64,000 bases of DNA from positions 1-64,000 of IMG/VR virus record IMGVR_UViG_3300032093_000021; one strand, given 5' to 3'. Each line of letters begins with the position of its first letter. Position 1 is the stretch's first letter. The notes below the pieces were generated by a model. It was given only the letters and a program-made list of their open reading frames with translations, was not told where the DNA came from and searched no databases. The position numbers and the translations under genes were made by a program. This DNA comes from a virus. Shown here piece after piece: positions 6,605 to 64,000 of this stretch.

Positions 6605-8470
6605 TTATTTTTTTATAAGTTTGAATGTAAAATTAGTCATTAAATCGTTATAAACCAAAACTTTTATGAAAAAAAATCCTGAACTTACTAAATTATTGAT
6701 ATTGAGTGTATTTTGACCATTAATAAATTTCCTTTGATCAAATACTAATTTACCGGATGCGTCGTAAATGAATACCTCTTGATCATATTTATATTTTCCG
6801 AAATCTGATATAAGATTTGAACCCTGAAGATAAACGTTTACTTTATTAGTTGAATTTATATTTGGATAGATTGTTCTGGTCTCATTTAGTTCCAAAACAC
6901 CATTAAAACTAAAACCCCATATCCAAAATTTTGAATTCGCCCCTCCATCTCCATCAACAACCAAATAATATGTTTTACCAATTTCAGAAGTAAAACAATG
7001 TTGTTGATTATATTGTGTTCCGGCGGTAGTTCCATATATTGAAGGTCTTGGACAAGAAACAACCTGCCAGTTTGGGTCATTAGTTGGAGTTTTTGATACT
7101 TGAGTGCATGGATCGTTATCATTATCTAAATTCACATCTGTAACAACTATACTTTGTAATGCCACACTAGTTCCACTAATACCACTAATGGATAAACACG
7201 TATTAGATGCTGTCGCAGTATATTTGATCCAAACATCATTATTATTTGCAAAGTTCCAACCACAGGTAGCACCTCCAATGGTTCCAAAACTATTGGTGTT
7301 AGGTCCTCCTAAAGAACCTGGCATCTGTGTGCTACCGGACATTCCCGTTGTGTTGGCACATATCGGAGAAGAACCATCCCATACTATAGGATTGGAGCAA
7401 TTATCTCCGGTTGTTCCTTGTGAAATAATATTAGGATCCCCAAAGAAAAGACGAATATCATCAATACAAGGTGGGAAAGCAGTCGTTTCACTAAATATAA
7501 TTTTCCAAGTTCCATCAGCGTTTCCTGTGAAATTAGAATAATAAGTAGGAGTTCCTTGATATTGAGCATTGAAATATCCATTTTTACCTATCGCAGTTAA
7601 TGGCGCTCCTCCATTAAAATCATTCAAAACATTTGGATTATTCAAACAAGTCGTAAAACTAACAAGATTAAGATAATGGGTTCCTGTTGCAGAGGTTGAT
7701 AATCCTCCACTGTATATACCATAACATGTTCCGTTAGGGGACATTATTCTGATCTGTAAAGCGTCAAAATTTTTAGTCCCGGTCCCACAATCATTAAGTC
7801 CTAAAGAAACTAGTAATAGCTGATTGACAGAAGTCATATTTCCAACACCACTAACAGGAATATTAAATACACTCGGAGATGAAGATCCGGGATTTGCACA
7901 AGAACCTGTAGCGTTATCAAGATTTATTATGGGATTATTATCAAGCGTAAATATTTTTCTCGGGGTAGTTGAAACAGTATATGAGAATATCGTAGCATTT
8001 GAAGCTGGTCTATTTTCAACGGAGCAAAAAGTTCTTGGGGCGTTTCCACAACCATTTCCAAATATTTCATCTCCTCCACCACTATGCCAAGCACTAACGA
8101 TATACTTTACTACAGTTCCCGCAGGTTGAGCCGGTATTGTCCCAAAAACAGCATCAACAACAGGAGAACCAAAGTTATGATCAAATGTTACATTTACAAC
8201 TTGTGTGGTTCCATTTCCAACACCAAAAGCCCCGGATGGATTACTTCCATCAGTTGTATAATAAATTCTTGCTTGATTCCAATAGAACTGAAATTCAATT
8301 TTGAATCCAATCTTTACTGATTGAGTTCTATTTGGTGTCATTACATCTCTGAATTGTAAGGATGTAAGTCCTATGGTATTTGTCGTTGCTTCATGATATA
8401 CATAATCCGCCTCAGCGAAACAAAATAAATGGATAAGAAGTCCTAATAGAAATATGAAAATTTTTTTCAT
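6605..8470 (-). CDS. Large secreted protein with P-domain-like region and T9SS-type C-terminal domain
   Basis: 621 residues. An N-terminal signal peptide (MKKIFIFLLGLLIHLFCFA) is followed by beta-sandwich regions. Residues about 200-345 resemble a proprotein-convertase P-domain (NFDALQIRIMSPNGTCYGIY, then GNADGTWKIIFSE). Several Cys residues suggest disulphides. The last 90 residues match the type A sorting domain of the type IX secretion system: TRTIYPNINS, FIYDASGKLVFDQ, then SSGFFFIKVLVYN and a basic FKLIKK end. It is therefore probably exported by the host's T9SS and attached to or released from the cell surface. The start overlaps the upstream secreted gene by 4 nt. Confidence 0.7.
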   Translation of the reverse strand: MKKIFIFLLGLLIHLFCFAEADYVYHEATTNTIGLTSLQFRDVMTPNRTQSVKIGFKIEFQFYWNQARIYYTTDGSNPSGAFGVGNGTTQVVNVTFDHNFGSPVVDAVFGTIPAQPAGTVVKYIVSAWHSGGGDEIFGNGCGNAPRTFCSVENRPASNATIFSYTVSTTPRKIFTLDNNPIINLDNATGSCANPGSSSPSVFNIPVSGVGNMTSVNQLLLVSLGLNDCGTGTKNFDALQIRIMSPNGTCYGIYSGGLSTSATGTHYLNLVSFTTCLNNPNVLNDFNGGAPLTAIGKNGYFNAQYQGTPTYYSNFTGNADGTWKIIFSETTAFPPCIDDIRLFFGDPNIISQGTTGDNCSNPIVWDGSSPICANTTGMSGSTQMPGSLGGPNTNSFGTIGGATCGWNFANNNDVWIKYTATASNTCLSISGISGTSVALQSIVVTDVNLDNDNDPCTQVSKTPTNDPNWQVVSCPRPSIYGTTAGTQYNQQHCFTSEIGKTYYLVVDGDGGANSKFWIWGFSFNGVLELNETRTIYPNINSTNKVNVYLQGSNLISDFGKYKYDQEVFIYDASGKLVFDQRKFINGQNTLNINNLVSSGFFFIKVLVYNDLMTNFTFKLIKK

Positions 8471-9582
8471 AAATTAACTATTTTTAAGGTTTTGGTGTAA
8501 AATGTATATCTGTAGTAAATTGTTATATTCAAATAATAAAACCCTTTTGGAAGTTGGTAAACCTTATTTCCCCTAAAAATCATTCTTTCAATACCTATCG
8601 ATCTTCCGTCAGAAAGATAAGAAGAAATGTTCACTTGTGTTTCTAAATCGGTATTGAATACTATTGTATTTCCAAAAATTTTATATTGAAACCCGGATGG
8701 TAAACCTGGTCTGATGGTTGTATTATTTTGCAGATCTAAAGTCACATCACATATACAACCTTTTCTAATTGTATCTTGAATCCATATTTGGTTATTAGGG
8801 TTATTGAAAGCCCCGGGTGTTGCTGAAGCCGCAGAACCTGTAATCCAATTAGTAGAGGTATAATACCCACTTAAATCAAGTCCATTGTATGCATAGAATG
8901 TGTTAGCACCATTAGTTGTTGCAACTAAAGGAGCCAAAGAGTTTCCAACCATATTAGCCGCAGCTCCACAAGATGATAAAGTGGTCCTACCGTAAACTAC
9001 CGCATGGACTAAATTGAATGAAGGATCTCTTAATTGTAAACCATCACCGGCATTAGCAGCATTTATTGTATTCCAATTACCAACACCATATGTCAAACAA
9101 TCTGAATATGATAACTTTGTGCTACAACTCAAAGCGGCAGGTGCCGTAGTGCATGATTCCAAAGAAACATGATTTGCAGGTAAAACATAAACACAATCAT
9201 TATTAAAATCGTATGGATCATCAGGAGGAATTGATAAATCACGATCCAAATCATTATAGATTATAATAATAGCACCCACAGGTAATCTTGTCCAAGGCGC
9301 AACATTTTTGAATCTTAAATGACCATTTGCAAACCCACTCCCGAAATTGTTACTCGAAGGTGAAAAGGTTCCATCATTATCATCAATTACCCAACCCGCA
9401 CAATTTAATGAATTGGTAAAACAACCACGAAGGCTTGCCGCAGTTGGTGTAGTTGGAGCTACAAGTAATTCAATCCACTCTTTAGATCCTGATGGACCAT
9501 TTGAAAACTCATTAATTCTTAGCGTCTGTCCAAATATTGTTAAACACAGTATTTGAAATAATATTATTAATTTTAACTTCAT
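8467..9582 (-). CDS. Secreted lamin-tail-domain-like protein
   Basis: 371 residues. A signal peptide (MKLKLIILFQILCLTIFGQ) precedes TLRINEFSNGPSGSKEWIEL, the opening pattern of lamin-tail domains found in Bacteroidota secreted proteins. The mature part is Cys-rich (for example SLESCTTAPAALSCSTKLSY). The last 80 residues have the beta-rich character of a T9SS sorting domain (VNISSYLSDGR, KGFYYLNITIYY, TKTLKIVNL), although less canonical than in the neighbour. Co-transcribed with two other secreted proteins; probably displayed on the infected cell or carried with the virion. Confidence 0.65.
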   Translation of the reverse strand: MKLKLIILFQILCLTIFGQTLRINEFSNGPSGSKEWIELLVAPTTPTAASLRGCFTNSLNCAGWVIDDNDGTFSPSSNNFGSGFANGHLRFKNVAPWTRLPVGAIIIIYNDLDRDLSIPPDDPYDFNNDCVYVLPANHVSLESCTTAPAALSCSTKLSYSDCLTYGVGNWNTINAANAGDGLQLRDPSFNLVHAVVYGRTTLSSCGAAANMVGNSLAPLVATTNGANTFYAYNGLDLSGYYTSTNWITGSAASATPGAFNNPNNQIWIQDTIRKGCICDVTLDLQNNTTIRPGLPSGFQYKIFGNTIVFNTDLETQVNISSYLSDGRSIGIERMIFRGNKVYQLPKGFYYLNITIYYRYTFYTKTLKIVNL

Positions 9583-12505: not shown

Positions 12506-13501
12506 TTATTGTTTTTTTGGATATAATACTATTAATGAGTAAATTCTCGTGTTATTTTCAAATTTACCACCTTTCAACTCTACTGCACCATATTCAGTAT
12601 TTTTACTTATCGTATTTTGACAAGATTGACATGATGACTCTCCAGGTAAATTAAATCTTAGGAAAAGACCATAAACCGGAGTATTTCCTAAATTGACTGA
12701 AAAAGTTTTCTTTTCCATGTCCAACTTGATTGAGGTTAAATCCAAACTTTTTCCTCTAGTTTGGTCTTTAATTTTTGTTTCAAGTTCATCAACAGTTTGT
12801 GCTTGAATATTAATGGTTCCAGATCCACTTTGATTATTTGTATTTTTGTTTGTACTAGATCCCGCTTGAATTGGATAACCTTTAGTTGTTCCTATTTGTA
12901 CACCATTTTTATCTAAAATTGGAGTATCCACGATTTGTCTGTAGTAAAAATAGGTTTCATAAATTGGTGATGATTTACCTCCTTGGGCTACAATAGGGTT
13001 TTGATTTTTTTTGAAAAATGCATATTTTGAAGGATCACTTTGAAATGCAGATGGAATTGCCACCCCTCTATGTCCCCAACCACCTCTACCATCAAAGCTA
13101 GTTATTGCTTTATCCTCAGTCGTTGCACTTAACGGAATTTTTATTTCCAAGAAATTATCATCTTTTGTCATGGTTATACCATCTAAATCAGGAATTACGT
13201 AAGTTCCTGAGTTGTACAATTCCTTGAGGTAATCACCAGTCACTTTTTTAGCAACCGCAGTTGCTTGATGTATTGAATCACCTTTACTACCATCTTTATG
13301 TTGAATACAAAACCCAGTCTCAGGACCATTATATGTTACTTTTACCTCTGAAGCAGTTTTAGAAACATCAACTTTTGGTTTAGTAACTCCATCACCATTC
13401 TGATAATTTTCAAAATCGCACCTTATCTGTTCTGTGATCAGTCCATACATCTTACGAATTTCGTATTTTTCTGACTCAGTAATTATAAATCTTCCTCCCA
13501 T
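12506..13501 (-). CDS. Tagged protein of unknown function
   Basis: 331 residues. The N-terminus MGGRFIITESEKYEIRKMYG + LITEQ is nearly the same as in the adjacent gene although the rest is unrelated. The mature region is beta-rich, with a glycine/aromatic patch (FDGRGGWGHRGVAIPS) and a C-terminal CQSC motif (SSCQSCQNTISK) that could bind metal or form a disulphide. The TATTTATG element stands exactly 4 nt before the ATG, and the giant RNA's terminator lies just beyond. Capsid targeting is inferred from the tag; no enzymatic fold recognised. Confidence 0.7.
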   Translation of the reverse strand: MGGRFIITESEKYEIRKMYGLITEQIRCDFENYQNGDGVTKPKVDVSKTASEVKVTYNGPETGFCIQHKDGSKGDSIHQATAVAKKVTGDYLKELYNSGTYVIPDLDGITMTKDDNFLEIKIPLSATTEDKAITSFDGRGGWGHRGVAIPSAFQSDPSKYAFFKKNQNPIVAQGGKSSPIYETYFYYRQIVDTPILDKNGVQIGTTKGYPIQAGSSTNKNTNNQSGSGTINIQAQTVDELETKIKDQTRGKSLDLTSIKLDMEKKTFSVNLGNTPVYGLFLRFNLPGESSCQSCQNTISKNTEYGAVELKGGKFENNTRIYSLIVLYPKKQ

Positions 13502-13505
13502 AATT

Positions 13506-13513
13506 CATAAATA
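13506..13513 (-). promoter_or_regulatory. TATTTATG element, 4 nt before ATG
   Basis: On the minus strand TATTTATG is followed by AATT and the ATG at 13501, the same geometry as at 425 and 15053. Confidence 0.5.
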
Positions 13514-13524
13514 TCTATGGGCAC

Positions 13525-13565
13525 AAAAAAACCTCCAACTTTTTTCTACAAAAATCAGAGGTTTT
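13525..13565 (-). terminator. Terminator of the giant RNA transcript
   Basis: On the minus strand AAAACCTC (13558-13565) pairs with GAGGTTTT (13528-13535) across a 22-nt loop, then continues as a T-run. It marks the 3' end of the transcript that crosses the gene-free region. Confidence 0.8.
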
Positions 13566-14590
13566 ACTATATAGCAATAGGGGTATTGAAAAAAACGCTG
13601 AGATTACACGTTAGTTCAGAGAATCTTTCGAAGGATTATTTGGTTCCCTTCTTATCCACTTCCTTTTGAGAAGTAATCCTCAATGACGATTGATTGGGTC
13701 AATCACACCTAAAGGTTTCAATTACTCTCTCATTACTCAACTCTCTTCGAAGATGCCTCCCCGACGCGTCCTTGCGGGACTAGAGGTTTTTGGTAAGAAT
13801 ACACTCAGACTTGCGATCCTTGTGTGCAATGAACGGCTCATTACTATGTAGTCACCTTTCATTGAAACCTGACGAACACTTTTGCTTAATTGATTTAATG
13901 GACTTAAATGCATTAAGTTTTGTGTTGCGAATGTGTCGAAGTAGTGGTTCGTCTTAGGCTTCGTTATCTTTTGAACAACGAAATACCAAACTACTCCGTG
14001 AGATGTCCCCACCTCCTTGCTTCAAGTAAACTTCATAACTCATACCCTTGGTAGGGTTAAGGTTAAGGACTCCAACAGCACCACCTGTACGGGATCATAC
14101 CTTTCGGTTTTAAGCTTACTTTAGTAATGGAGACCGCAATCGTGTTGTCGGATAACAACATATCTTACAGGAATCCTATGGGTTATTCTTATTGATCTTC
14201 CGACCTCAATCCGAGAATTCGCGTCCCCGGATCATCTAACCACTCCCCCTACAGTGTTACCCTCGGTACTAGAGGTTAGATGATATCCCACTTGTATACT
14301 CGAGTTCCATTTCTGAAACCGCAAAGTCATTAACACAGATGACTTCACTTTATCTCACTTTCGTGGTTTATTTAAGGACCATATACGGCCCATTACCTTT
14401 ATCAAATGACCGAAGTCAGATGAACGGATAATTATTTTAATTCAAAGAACTGTTAAGTTAGACAAGAAGAGGAATCTTTACGACCACTCACTAACCTCCA
14501 CTTATAATCACCGGTTTTTGTCTGATTTTAGAGACTCATTCCGGTAGGACTGAGAGTAGTGGAACCTTTACAACCCCTTCTCGTCTTTTG
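13526..14590 (-). ncRNA. Giant structured RNA candidate (GOLLD/ROOL-like), about 1.06 kb
   Basis: Gene-free, clearly richer in G+C than the flanks, and full of complementary segments. Its own promoter box lies at 14596-14603 and its terminator at 13525-13565. Main helices (plus coordinates): 14535-14538/14551-14554 with 14540-14542/14547-14549; 14376-14380/14387-14391; 14324-14330/14339-14345 inside 14316-14320/14365-14369; 14229-14241/14274-14288 (longest, about 13 bp with a 2-nt bulge); 14143-14148/14155-14160; 14044-14048/14053-14057; 13960-13965/13977-13982; 13868-13876/13948-13958 enclosing a long stacked hairpin at 13875-13926; 13688-13693/13699-13704; 13632-13638/13674-13680; 13575-13579/13584-13588. 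The helix at 14376-14391 needs a G-U pair that exists only in the minus-strand RNA, which fixes the strand. Phage location, size and position directly after a tRNA match the GOLLD and ROOL classes. Membership is inferred, not aligned. Confidence 0.75.
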
Positions 14591-14595
14591 TTTCA

Positions 14596-14627
14596 CAAAG
14601 GTAAGAAAGGTTTTTCAAACTTCCAAA
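14596..14627 (-). promoter_or_regulatory. Bacteroidota promoter for the giant RNA
   Basis: The minus strand has TTTG (14624-14627), a 20-nt spacer, then TACCTTTG (14596-14603), an exact match to the TTTG-N17-23-TAnnTTTG consensus of the Bacteroidota primary sigma factor. It lies in an imperfect copy (14587-14650) of the repeat that carries the tRNA promoter. Start of transcription is expected near 14590. Confidence 0.75.
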
Positions 14628-14650
14628 TCTTTTTTTGAAACTTTTTTTTG

Positions 14651-14722
14651 TTGCGGCGATTGGATTCGAACCAATGATCCCTAGGTTATGAGCCTAGTGA
14701 GATACCACTTCTCCACGCCACG
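14651..14722 (-). tRNA. tRNA-Met (CAU anticodon), initiator-like
   Basis: A complete cloverleaf on the minus strand: acceptor CGTGGCG/CGCCGCA with discriminator A; D-arm GAGA-AGTGGTA-TCTC; anticodon arm CTAGG-CTCATAA-CCTAG with anticodon CAU; variable loop GGATC; T-arm ATTGG-TTCGAAT-CCAAT. The CCA end is not encoded. Two features typical of bacterial initiator tRNA are present: a C1 x A72 mismatch at the end of the acceptor, and A11-U24 in the D-stem. Of the three G-C pairs below the anticodon (29-31/39-41), two are G-C and one is A-U, so it is not fully canonical. An elongator Met or a lysidine-modified Ile tRNA cannot be excluded. Confidence 0.93.
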
Positions 14723-14793
14723 ATATAATATTTTAAAGATCTTTCAAATTAAGGATGAGTTGAGTATTTCGTCCCTCATCCCCATTTGTTTCA

Positions 14794-14824
14794 CAAAGAT
14801 AAGAAGTCATTTCCAAACTTCAAA
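14794..14824 (-). promoter_or_regulatory. Bacteroidota promoter for the tRNA, with leader hairpin
   Basis: TTTG (14821-14824), 19-nt spacer, TATCTTTG (14794-14801) on the minus strand. The transcript would begin near 14790 and carry a leader of about 65 nt before the tRNA. The leader contains a perfect 7-bp hairpin, GGATGAG/CTCATCC (14753-14759/14775-14781), which may guide tRNA processing. Confidence 0.7.
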
Positions 14825-14865
14825 ATCTTTTTGAAAAATTTTTTTGGTCATCAAATACAACAGAC

Positions 14866-14920
14866 AATTTATGGACCTCCACTCTTGGGTCAGGTTTGCC
14901 CGGTTATCAGAACCAAAATT
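14866..14920 (-). ncRNA. Possible small three-way-junction RNA
   Basis: On the minus strand an outer stem (14916-14920/14866-14870) encloses two hairpins, GGTT-CTGAT-AACC (14902-14914) and GACC-N10-GGTC (14874-14891). A TATCTTTG box at 14945-14952 lies about 25 nt upstream. The stems are short (4-5 bp), so this could be chance or leader sequence of the tRNA transcript. No known class recognised. Confidence 0.3.
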
Positions 14921-54371: not shown

Positions 54372-56153
54372 TTATATTAAACCATTATCTATTATTATCC
54401 AATTATTAGGTGCCGAAGTTAAAATACTTTTAGCAGAACTTGCGATGTTGTTGTAGTTCTGTGAAACATTCATCTGAACATTCGGTTTCAGAGTCAATAC
54501 TGACCAATCTATTAACAGATTATTGTAGTTTGTTATACTAAAACTACTTCCTGATAAAAATCCACTCAAGTTTGTAACATTTATTGGTTTCCATGTTTGT
54601 AAAGTTTGGTTAAAATTTGAAGAATTTCTAAACATATCCTCCATTGTAGTTACACCTGTGACATTCCAAGTTGATAGATCTTTGTTAAATTGTGAAGCTC
54701 CTTCAAACATACTTTCCATAGTCGTAACTTTAGATACATCCCACGATCCAATTGGTTGATTAAATGAAACAGCATTTGTAAATACCCCTTCCATCAAAGT
54801 GACAGCACTTGTAGTCCAACCACTTATATTGGGGGATCCTAAATTATTAAAGATTGATGCCCCATTAAACATATTTCTGAATGTTTTAACATTACTTACA
54901 TCCCAATTACTCAAATCCTGATTAAACATAACCGCACTTCCAAACATTGATCTCAAACCTTGACTGAAACCACAACAAGTATTCACTTTTTTTACATTCC
55001 AATTACCTAATGGTTGATTAAATTTGTCTGTTGAGAAAAACATATGTCCCATCTCTTCAGCCGATGAAGTATTCCAATTATTTATAGTTGGAGACGAATT
55101 ATTGTTGAATTTTTTTGCATCATGGAACATATAACCAAAGAATTTTACTTTTGAAACATTCCATTTTCCAATGTTCCTATTAAAGTTATATGCATTATAA
55201 AACATATAATTCATTTTAGTTACACTTGATGTGTCCCAATCATTTATTGTATCACTTCCGTTATTGTCAAAATTTGTTGCCCCTGCAAACATAAATTGCA
55301 TATCAGCACAAAATAATGTTTTCCAATTCCCTATATTTTTATTAAATTGAGTTGCACTTTCAAACATGCTTTGCATCGTGGTTACATTGTTTGTTGTCCA
55401 ACCACTTAAGTCTGAATTGAAAACAGTTGCATTTTTGAAGGTATAACTCATGTTATTTACCTTTGAAGTGTCCCATTGGCTTACCTTATTTATACTTGAT
55501 AGACTTGTACACGACTCAAATAAACTTGAAAACGATGTCATACCTGAAGTGTTTAGGGTATCAACAACATTCGGAATATTGAGATTGGTACAAGCCGAAA
55601 AATGCCCTGTTGAATTCCCGAGCTGTATGGGTCCCCACTTTAAAATTTCCAATAATTTTAATCTATCGGAAGGATCTATTTTATAGTTCCACCCTATAAA
55701 GTTACCCGGAAAACTATAAATTTTTATTTCATATACACCAGTTGATGCATAGGTATGTGTTTTTTTAACATCATTCCAATTTTTTATATTATCCCAAGGC
55801 CCCCCATCTCCCCAATCAACATATATGTCGTAAATACCTGAAGATATTAGTGGTAATTTCACTTGATTATTACTGGTTGTTCCGGGTTTGGTTGTATCTA
55901 TTTTGAAATGAAAATATTGCGGTTCTTCAATTTCTATTTCAGCGCATAGATTGTTATTGTCTACAATTTTGAGTTTTGTGGTGCCAATAGGTATATTATT
56001 TAAGATCAATGGACAATTTGGTAACGTCAATTGAGAAACAGTCGTTGAGGTTATTTCAGAGATATAATAATCCTGATTGCCATAAATGACTATAGGATCT
56101 ACCAAGTTATTGGCACCAATATCATCCAAACAAATTGCAACTTCAAATGTCAT
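54372..56153 (-). CDS. BspA-like (DUF285) repeat surface protein
   Basis: 593 residues. A short N-terminal PKD-like part (YDIYVDWGDGGPWDNIKNWN) is followed by about 14 BspA-type leucine-rich repeats of some 25 residues, with the phrases W-D-T-S-K-V-x-x-M, MFxxAxxFNxxL, and NxW. DUF285/BspA repeats mediate attachment in bacteria and are found in large-phage fibres. It is paralogous to the protein at 62307. It likely contributes to host-surface binding. Confidence 0.85.
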   Translation of the reverse strand: MTFEVAICLDDIGANNLVDPIVIYGNQDYYISEITSTTVSQLTLPNCPLILNNIPIGTTKLKIVDNNNLCAEIEIEEPQYFHFKIDTTKPGTTSNNQVKLPLISSGIYDIYVDWGDGGPWDNIKNWNDVKKTHTYASTGVYEIKIYSFPGNFIGWNYKIDPSDRLKLLEILKWGPIQLGNSTGHFSACTNLNIPNVVDTLNTSGMTSFSSLFESCTSLSSINKVSQWDTSKVNNMSYTFKNATVFNSDLSGWTTNNVTTMQSMFESATQFNKNIGNWKTLFCADMQFMFAGATNFDNNGSDTINDWDTSSVTKMNYMFYNAYNFNRNIGKWNVSKVKFFGYMFHDAKKFNNNSSPTINNWNTSSAEEMGHMFFSTDKFNQPLGNWNVKKVNTCCGFSQGLRSMFGSAVMFNQDLSNWDVSNVKTFRNMFNGASIFNNLGSPNISGWTTSAVTLMEGVFTNAVSFNQPIGSWDVSKVTTMESMFEGASQFNKDLSTWNVTGVTTMEDMFRNSSNFNQTLQTWKPINVTNLSGFLSGSSFSITNYNNLLIDWSVLTLKPNVQMNVSQNYNNIASSAKSILTSAPNNWIIIDNGLI

Positions 56154-62132: not shown

Positions 62133-62312
62133 ATGAAACTTTTGAAAACTATACAAAAATTAGTTGAAGACGCAGAAAGAGATTATTATATCGCTTGTGA
62201 TAGGTGTGCTGATGAAAAAACAATTAAGAGATTAGAAAAAAATTATTTAGATAGTCTAAAACTGATGGAAAAAATAAATAAAATAGATACACCAAAAAAA
62301 GAAAATCTATAA
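62133..62312 (+). CDS. 59-aa small helical protein with tag-like start
   Basis: MKLLKTIQKLVEDAERDYYI, then ACDRCADEKTIKRLEKNYLD and SLKLMEKINKIDTPKKENL. The first residues resemble the tags of the HEMMH and LRR proteins (T-x-x-x-L-V-E-D). One CDRC pair. It is convergent with the BspA-like gene, overlapping by 6 nt. The TATTTATG element 4 nt upstream supports it. Confidence 0.6.
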   Translation: MKLLKTIQKLVEDAERDYYIACDRCADEKTIKRLEKNYLDSLKLMEKINKIDTPKKENL

Positions 62313-64000
62313 TCCCCCATCTATTATAACCCAATTATAAGGACTTCCTGTAAGAGTGTTTCTACCTGATTGTCCTGCAACAGTATACTTTATAGTTCCA
62401 AAATTTATAGTCAATCCGGATTTTAATATCTTGCTTGACCAACTATTTAATAAACTATCATAATTTGCAGTTGAATAGTTTGAGAATGTTTTACCTGTCA
62501 TAAATCCTGTAAACGCAGTAACAGAAGATGCTGACCAACCACTTATAGGTTGGTTGAAAGCGATTGCATCATTGAACATATTAGTCATGTCCCTAACATT
62601 ACTAACATTCCAAGAATCTATTGGTTGATTGAATAATGAAGCACCCCTAAACATAGAAGTCATGTCTGTAACATTTGAGACGTTCCAACCGGATATTGAG
62701 GTAGATCCGGAATTGTTGAAAGATGAGTTTGATGCAAACATGGAATTCATGTTTGTTGCGGCAGATGTATTCCAACTACCGATATTTTGGTTAAACCCTG
62801 AACATGAAAGCATGGATGAAAAATTAGTCACCTTAGAAGTATTCCAGCTACCAATCGGTTGATTGAAACTTGTCCCTAAAAAAGTTGACCCAAAATCAAC
62901 AACGTTGCCCGTACTCCATCCACTTATTGAAGGGCTTCCTCCATTATTAAACGCAGATCCGAATGTTCTTCTAAAAAAAGTTGCCGCGGAAACATTCCAA
63001 GCTCCGATATCTTGATTGAATGGTGAACTGGCAAATGTGCTATGAAATCCATTACTGTTTGCAAACGAAGTTGTGACATTTCTTACATCCCAACTACCTA
63101 TGGGTTGATTAAAAGATGTTGCATAAAACATATGACCCATTTGAGTTGCCGCGGATGTTGTCCAACCACTAATAGAAGGGTTATTATTATTGTTAAATAA
63201 TGTTGCTTGTCCAAACATATAACCGAAAGCCTGAACTTTGGATACATTCCAAGAACCAACATTCCTATTGAATTTGACCGCATTGAAAAACATATAATTC
63301 ATGGCAGTGGCCGCAGAAGTAACCCAATTGTTAATTGAATTATTACCAGCATTATCAAAATTTGCAGCATTTTCAAACATCGTATTGAAGGTTGTGACTT
63401 TTGATGTATCCCAATTACCGATATTTTTATTAAACGTATTACAAGATGAAAACATTGATGCCATGGTTGTTACCGCGGATGTTGTCCATCCACTCAAATC
63501 GTCGTTAAAGAATGTACATCCTTGAAACATATTGCTCATGTTTGTAACATTTGAAGTGTTCCAAGAATTGACATTATTTATTGTAGTGAGACTTGTACAT
63601 GATCTAAACATTTGGGTCAGGTTTGTAGATCCACTTAAATTTATTACATCTGTTGTTCCTGTAAGTCTTAAATTGGAACAACCATAAAAGTAAGACCCCA
63701 AAAATGTCGCCCCTGTTGATTGAAGTTGTACAGGTCCCCACCTATTAACATGTAACATTTTTAACCTATCTCCCGAGTTATTAAATCTGAAACCTCTGAA
63801 ATTTCCCGGATAAGCGTATACCGTAACGTCATAAATTCCGGGAGTTGTATATGTATGTGCGGTTAATGGACTATTCCAAGTTGTTATATAATCTGTAGGG
63901 CCCGAATCTCCCCAATCAACTATCATATTATAAGTTCCCGCACTAACTAATGGAAGTGCAAACTGATTTGATGGCGAACTACCGACACTAGTTAATGTTG
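62307..64000 (-). CDS. BspA-like (DUF285) repeat surface protein, 5' end beyond the window
   Basis: The frame is open from the right edge to the stop at 62307; an internal Met at 63926 is not the real start, because the residues before it (SPSNQFALPLVSAGTYNM) align with the paralogue at 54372. At least 564 residues: a VDWGDSGPTDYITTWN PKD-like part, then about 15 BspA repeats (WNTSNVTNMSNMF, GCTFFNDDLSGWTTS...). Host-binding fibre protein is likely. Partial at the N-terminus. Confidence 0.85.
   Translation of the reverse strand, partial: TLTSVGSSPSNQFALPLVSAGTYNMIVDWGDSGPTDYITTWNSPLTAHTYTTPGIYDVTVYAYPGNFRGFRFNNSGDRLKMLHVNRWGPVQLQSTGATFLGSYFYGCSNLRLTGTTDVINLSGSTNLTQMFRSCTSLTTINNVNSWNTSNVTNMSNMFQGCTFFNDDLSGWTTSAVTTMASMFSSCNTFNKNIGNWDTSKVTTFNTMFENAANFDNAGNNSINNWVTSAATAMNYMFFNAVKFNRNVGSWNVSKVQAFGYMFGQATLFNNNNNPSISGWTTSAATQMGHMFYATSFNQPIGSWDVRNVTTSFANSNGFHSTFASSPFNQDIGAWNVSAATFFRRTFGSAFNNGGSPSISGWSTGNVVDFGSTFLGTSFNQPIGSWNTSKVTNFSSMLSCSGFNQNIGSWNTSAATNMNSMFASNSSFNNSGSTSISGWNVSNVTDMTSMFRGASLFNQPIDSWNVSNVRDMTNMFNDAIAFNQPISGWSASSVTAFTGFMTGKTFSNYSTANYDSLLNSWSSKILKSGLTINFGTIKYTVAGQSGRNTLTGSPYNWVIIDGGL

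Follow-up and report, generated by a model that had tools for sequence, protein, structure and literature searches.

GOLLD is among the largest known RNA-only assemblies, and ROOL, a second giant phage RNA, forms an RNA cage of eight copies. The GOLLD RNA env-38 assembles into a hollow 14-mer RNA cage, inside which its linker is disordered (PMC12286853). Ribosomes are stated to be pulled down with GOLLD (published work cited in PMC12286853), and a Lactobacillus GOLLD is described as dispensable for phage production (PMC7567579). The ~800-nt noncoding RNA of phage ICP1 is highly expressed and has been likened to GOLLD and ROOL in length only (PMC7567579). The element boxA is necessary and sufficient for the rrn antitermination complex of E. 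coli, which has been proposed to act as a chaperone of the nascent RNA (PMC10250234).

The window analysed here is the whole stretch of 64,000 nucleotides, taken from a virus record of 140,164 bp. Its phage-type genes include those for a sigma factor, a primase, an SbcC-like protein, an exonuclease, a thymidylate synthase and DNA methyltransferases, and its source is a tailed phage, the host of which is most likely one of the Bacteroidota. Two large tail-region proteins (54372-56153 and 62307-63926) are built from 'NTSNVTxMxxMF'-like repeats, the units of which resemble the BspA-like/DUF285 kind. The first-pass annotation had proposed a gene-free region of raised G+C encoding a giant structured RNA on the minus strand, and each of these points was borne out. 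The open reading frames found there were small and unconserved, the longest being of 91 aa from a GTG start, and none was convincing. The G+C content was 38-42% at 13500-14500 vs 28-35% in the neighbouring 500-bp bins, a value of 40% being also reached by a coding stretch at 16 kb. The fold of the minus-strand RNA was better than that of 20/20 dinucleotide shuffles (z = -2.5), and structure was further supported by covariation across relatives.

To identify the RNA, the region was compared with all Rfam families using cmscan. RF02032, the GOLLD model, was matched at 13998-13595 on the minus strand over its full length (model positions 1-416), with 324.1 bits and an E value of 4.7e-92, the gathering cut-off being 150 bits. 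The kinship with GOLLD suggested by the annotation was thereby confirmed. ROOL, named there as the other candidate class, gave no Rfam match over 13400-14900 even at E <= 1, and neither did OLE or HEARO, leaving GOLLD alone of the giant RNA families. A separate, less conserved domain of ~430 nt sits directly upstream of the 3' domain, such a 5' domain (~400 nt) being a feature of GOLLD membership. The RNA is nearly certainly GOLLD, and as such is a full-length, additional member of a class already known. The features of the locus, in the order of transcription, are as follows.

14794..14824, minus strand: separate Bacteroidota-type promoter of the tRNA (pattern match).
14650..14722, minus strand: tRNA-Met(CAU) with initiator hallmarks (C1xA72 mismatch, A11-U24, AGG/CCU anticodon stem); the only tRNA found.
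14596..14627, minus strand: GOLLD promoter TTTG-N20-TAccTTTG (Bacteroidota-type pattern), with the transcription start expected near 14589.
14460..14586, minus strand: leader stem with a 13-bp closing helix, 14586-14574/14472-14460 (fold).
14441..14450, minus strand: boxA-like element GUUCUUUGAA, the sole copy in the window, directly behind the leader stem.
13999..14431, minus strand: GOLLD 5' domain, outside the Rfam model, conserved in 36 non-redundant relatives.
14042..14087, minus strand: two hairpins with loops UGGU (14082-14079) and ACCA (14052-14049), complementary in 36/36 relatives and nearly invariant.
13595..13998, minus strand: GOLLD 3' domain (RF02032, Rfam search).
13871..13953, minus strand: pseudoknot 13953-13949/13875-13871, five pairs, 100% canonical in relatives and with compensatory changes.
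13880..13921, minus strand: variable linker separating the 5' part of the 3' domain from its remainder, a gapped stretch of low similarity.
13768..13780, minus strand: hairpin matching L21a, with loop GC (13775-13774) as the counterpart of bridge B8, swapped to CG in some relatives.
13525..13565, minus strand: intrinsic terminator, a 16-bp hairpin followed by a T run (sequence and fold).

Relatives were collected by a pattern scan of IMG/VR that gave 65 loci, from which a sequence profile was made. Comparison with the profile placed the conserved unit at ~14448 to 13578, hence including the 5' half. The covariation set comprised 36 non-redundant relatives, which in the first alignment had an average identity of 69% in pairwise comparison, and leaders and promoters were counted in 41 non-redundant loci. 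The relatives share descent and the search pattern favours close ones, and counts such as 40/41 are not independent events. The locus L021 is a near twin of the window locus. GOLLD was also seen in two uncultured huge phages, LR756502 (642 kb, locus L220) and LR745206 (635 kb, locus L221), the latter with a CAU tRNA and boxA and the former without a boxA-like motif. More distant GOLLDs are known from Acinetobacter, Mycobacterium and Streptococcus phages and from phage DSS3_MAL1; on visual inspection, the 5' domain in Acinetobacter has motifs in common with that of the window, e.g. GGTGGTGCTG followed by a hairpin with an ACCAAG loop. Profile search detected GOLLD in 0 of the contigs matching an 18-nt GOLLD pattern, and no host genome was found among them. 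RF02032 gave no match in 148 Bacteroidota genomes, where no control match was obtained either, and plasmids compared with the GOLLD consensus gave none.

Covariation was tested all against all on the 36 relatives with our own R-scape-like script, the null being a tree-based shuffle of substitutions; 19 pairs covaried significantly above it (E < 0.05). All 19 were canonical and spread over both halves, and 18 are included in the RNAalifold structure. In an independent MAFFT alignment of 29 sequences, 68 of the 102 consensus pairs of the 5' half showed compensatory double changes. With these 36 relatives, covariation data become available for the 5' domain as well, a part absent from the Rfam model.

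The individual helices read from the single sequence fared unevenly. The pseudoknot was strongly supported, and among contacts joining unpaired regions it alone covaries clearly; it is at most a tentative candidate for the L20-J13/15 kissing contact (B7). From the proposed 13-bp helix 14229-14241/14274-14288, the 9 pairs of 14282-14274/14241-14233 are conserved, 8 of them showing double changes, and the outer pairs are not. The nested hairpin at 13875-13926 retains its outer pairs (13925-13922/13879-13876), its inner part falling in the variable linker. No support was obtained for the local hairpin at 14376-14391, of which 2/5 pairs form in only ~60% of relatives; some of its sequence pairs over a long range (14386-14381/14299-14294, 100% canonical, one significantly covarying pair). 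A closure of the 5' and 3' ends by GGGGUUG and CAAUACCCC was likewise unsupported, lying outside the conserved core and competing with the 13-bp closing helix of the leader stem.

Several loops recall the published structure. The L21a-type loop of the window, CCGCAAG, is replaced by GUCGAA in some relatives, and a GC/CG swap in L21a was among the evidence of Kretsch et al. for the self-kissing intermolecular bridge B8 (PMC12286853). Near 14108-14099, a CC-GAAA-GG hairpin agrees with L11a, a conserved GAAA loop of the same work. A kissing contact is possible between the UGGU and ACCA loops of the 5' domain, either inside one chain or across two. By homology, the window RNA would be expected to form a cage.

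The promoter and terminator suggested for this RNA are both plausible and predict a transcript from ~14589 to 13528, of ~1.06 kb. The element at 14627-14596, which agrees with the Bacteroidota promoter consensus, recurs in the GOLLD loci of relatives, being found just upstream of GOLLD in 23/41 non-redundant loci vs 0.7% of shuffles. Genome-wide the pattern was not enriched (16 matches vs 11 for the reversed control). The leader is ~120 nt longer than usual in relatives, where the distance from promoter to core is often ~60 nt, and this distance is 180 nt in the window and in L021. At the position of the leader stem, relatives carry a small boxB-like hairpin, which in many cases reads UCGGAAACGUCCGA; compensatory variants, for instance UCAGAAACGUCUGA, also occur. 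The order of the unit is promoter, hairpin, GUUCUUUGAA, GOLLD and terminator.

The element behind the stem gives the leader an rRNA-like form. A boxA-like motif, GTTC[A/T]TT[G/A]A, was present in the leader of 40/41 non-redundant loci, which share descent, vs 1.4% of shuffles. In 368 kb of relatives, GTTCTTTGAA occurred 50 times vs 1.7 expected; GOLLD leaders account for 37 of the 50 copies, and of the remaining 13, 11 closely follow a TAnnTTTG promoter. As a family search for SSU rRNA in four genomes had given no match, the 16S leaders of possible hosts were located by primer pattern. Those of Flavobacteriaceae show a promoter and then GTTCATTGA/GTTCATTAA (8/12, by eye), and those of Sphingobacteriaceae GTTCTTTGA/GTTCTTTAA (6/12). 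Judged by sequence, GUUCUUUGAA is boxA, the host rRNA antitermination signal, and a candidate NusB/S10 site. With a simple pattern, boxA was not seen in the GOLLDs of Acinetobacter, Mycobacterium and Streptococcus phages or of DSS3_MAL1, and the boxA leader is therefore not general to GOLLD. In a literature search of partial coverage, no paper was found that names boxA together with GOLLD or ROOL, and within that search the rRNA-like leader and the initiator-tRNA link of GOLLD appear unreported.

Other elements were observed upstream of GOLLD in relatives. A conserved structured RNA of ~130-160 nt (CUAGGUCCGUAGGGCUACUGUUGU...GUGAGGAAAGUGACUACGGG...UCCUUCGCAUUUAAAGUG) lies ~60-400 nt upstream of the GOLLD core in L008, L037, L024, L020, L072 and L045, most copies having their own promoter, hairpin and boxA. 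It gave no Rfam match in the five loci scanned and is possibly an undescribed phage ncRNA. In L008, a conserved ORF of ~47 codons (MSNETQVIDEPLFYYYGNDGVKYYTCSAVLAMARAKFHGTDDVYVVS), itself preceded by a promoter and a boxA-like motif, is found shortly before the promoter of GOLLD or of the ncRNA, with similar DNA in L006, L041, L028 and L075.

The same-strand tRNA noted earlier at 14722-14650 proved to be of a recurrent kind. Within 700 nt of GOLLD, 43 tRNAs were CAU and 5 were others; farther away, 13 were CAU and 101 others (loci not dereplicated). A near CAU tRNA was present in 20/41 non-redundant loci, about half being without one within 700 nt. Under a strict rule for initiators, requiring A11-U24 together with a weak or mismatched 1-72 pair, 17/22 distinct near CAU tRNAs qualified vs 1/12 distant ones (Fisher p = 0.0002, a value that ignores shared descent); the other 5/22 had unclear D-arm or acceptor parses or were without A11-U24. 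The tRNA lies 0-12 nt behind GOLLD in many relatives, 6-8 nt before the core in huge-phage-like loci and 202 nt before it in the window, and since its position differs among loci, the association has survived rearrangement. In DSS3_MAL1, an initiator-type tRNA precedes GOLLD, a tmRNA follows within <100 nt, and a tRNA-Arg sits inside the GOLLD linker. The initiator-tRNA neighbour is not universal, because Acinetobacter phage Herod has a tRNA-Asp beside GOLLD and Weiss13 has no tRNA nearby. Phage tmRNA genes were seen within a few kb of GOLLD in L003, L008, L020, L022, L024, L029, L045, L050, L075, L087 and L100, and none was found in the window's own contig. In the GOLLD-bearing contig of L029, a group I intron (8352-8575) adjoins or overlaps the tmRNA gene.

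That this is a new giant RNA class, unrelated to GOLLD, ROOL and OLE, had been left open by the first-pass annotation and could draw on the fact that the Rfam model spans the 3' 404 nt only and that the transcript exceeds env-38 in length. The full-length match to RF02032 contradicts this reading and rules it out for practical purposes; the 5' half is moreover co-conserved with the 3' half in all relatives, including the 635- and 642-kb phages, and the extra length is that of the longer leader, upstream of the core. It is also very improbable that the locus is a GOLLD relic whose function has been lost, as the helices, pseudoknot, promoter and terminator are all intact and the nearest relative, L021, is 97% identical across the unit.

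The leader and the tRNA leave more room for doubt. Allowing for one bulge, the motif GUUCUUUGAA and a conserved hairpin loop of the 3' domain, UUCAAAAG (near 13974-13967), are complementary. The motif could simply be the conserved 5' tail of the GOLLDs in this subgroup, retained for a contact between RNA segments and unrelated to NusB. We find this unlikely: Acinetobacter GOLLD, which is without the motif, conserves the UUCAAAAG loop, the motif recurs behind non-GOLLD promoters of these phages and agrees with host rRNA leaders, and it lies at variable distances from the first core helix. The adjacent tRNA might serve RNA processing only, with RNase P cutting the GOLLD 3' end, any tRNA sufficing and the initiator type being inherited by chance. 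This is a real possibility, which we rate somewhat under even, as the tRNA begins 0-12 nt after the GOLLD end in many relatives and a tRNA-Asp holds that place in Herod. However, the tRNA is on the 5' side in the window and in huge-phage-like loci and is still of the CAU/initiator type, that of the window has a promoter of its own, DSS3_MAL1 also has an initiator-type tRNA beside GOLLD, and the distant CAU tRNAs on the same contigs are mostly of the elongator type.

By sequence, the locus is a full-length tailed-phage GOLLD with a host-type promoter, a stem-boxA leader, a terminator and an initiator-type tRNA, and we consider it likely that it combines boxA-aided synthesis, cage formation and a cargo or target linked to translation. 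The host RNA polymerase would initiate at the GOLLD promoter and boxA would recruit an rrn-type NusB/S10 complex, with which the long untranslated RNA could be made processively and fold while emerging. The pattern is a strong one and is best read as boxA driving processive synthesis and folding of GOLLD. The RNA would then assemble into a cage like the env-38 14-mer. The cargo or target of the cage would most likely be in translation, the weakest step of the model; translation is proposed because initiator-tRNA, and often tmRNA, neighbours recur. The recurrent initiator tRNA and the ribosome pull-down (cited in PMC12286853) narrow the search for the target to translation initiation, a role that we infer and offer as a lead. 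Tentatively, and as possible rather than probable, the Bacteroidota-phage GOLLD gene may have the form of a host rRNA operon, hijacking the host rRNA-making machinery for an RNA cage that acts on translation initiation with a co-inherited initiator tRNA. The conserved boxA leader suggests how phages produce a long untranslated RNA and makes this production testable with known host factors.

Among known systems, ROOL is likewise a giant phage RNA near tRNAs but is unrelated to the window RNA in sequence and fold. The ICP1 RNA is also a giant phage RNA in a gene-free gap, although ICP1 is without tRNAs. Bacterial rRNA operon leaders (boxB-boxA-boxC) share the arrangement of promoter, hairpin and boxA ahead of a long structured untranslated RNA, whereas the window unit drives GOLLD, and no boxC or conserved leader-trailer helix was identified there. 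The closest system is GOLLD env-38 (PMC12286853), which shares the complete 3' domain model, a two-domain layout, a variable linker, a pseudoknot, an L21a-type loop swapped between GC and CG among relatives, a 5'-domain hairpin with GAAA (the 5' domains being compared by published description), a phage location and a Met-tRNA neighbour. Unlike env-38, the window has a stem and boxA leader, a Bacteroidota promoter apart from that of the tRNA, and a transcript of ~1.06 kb.
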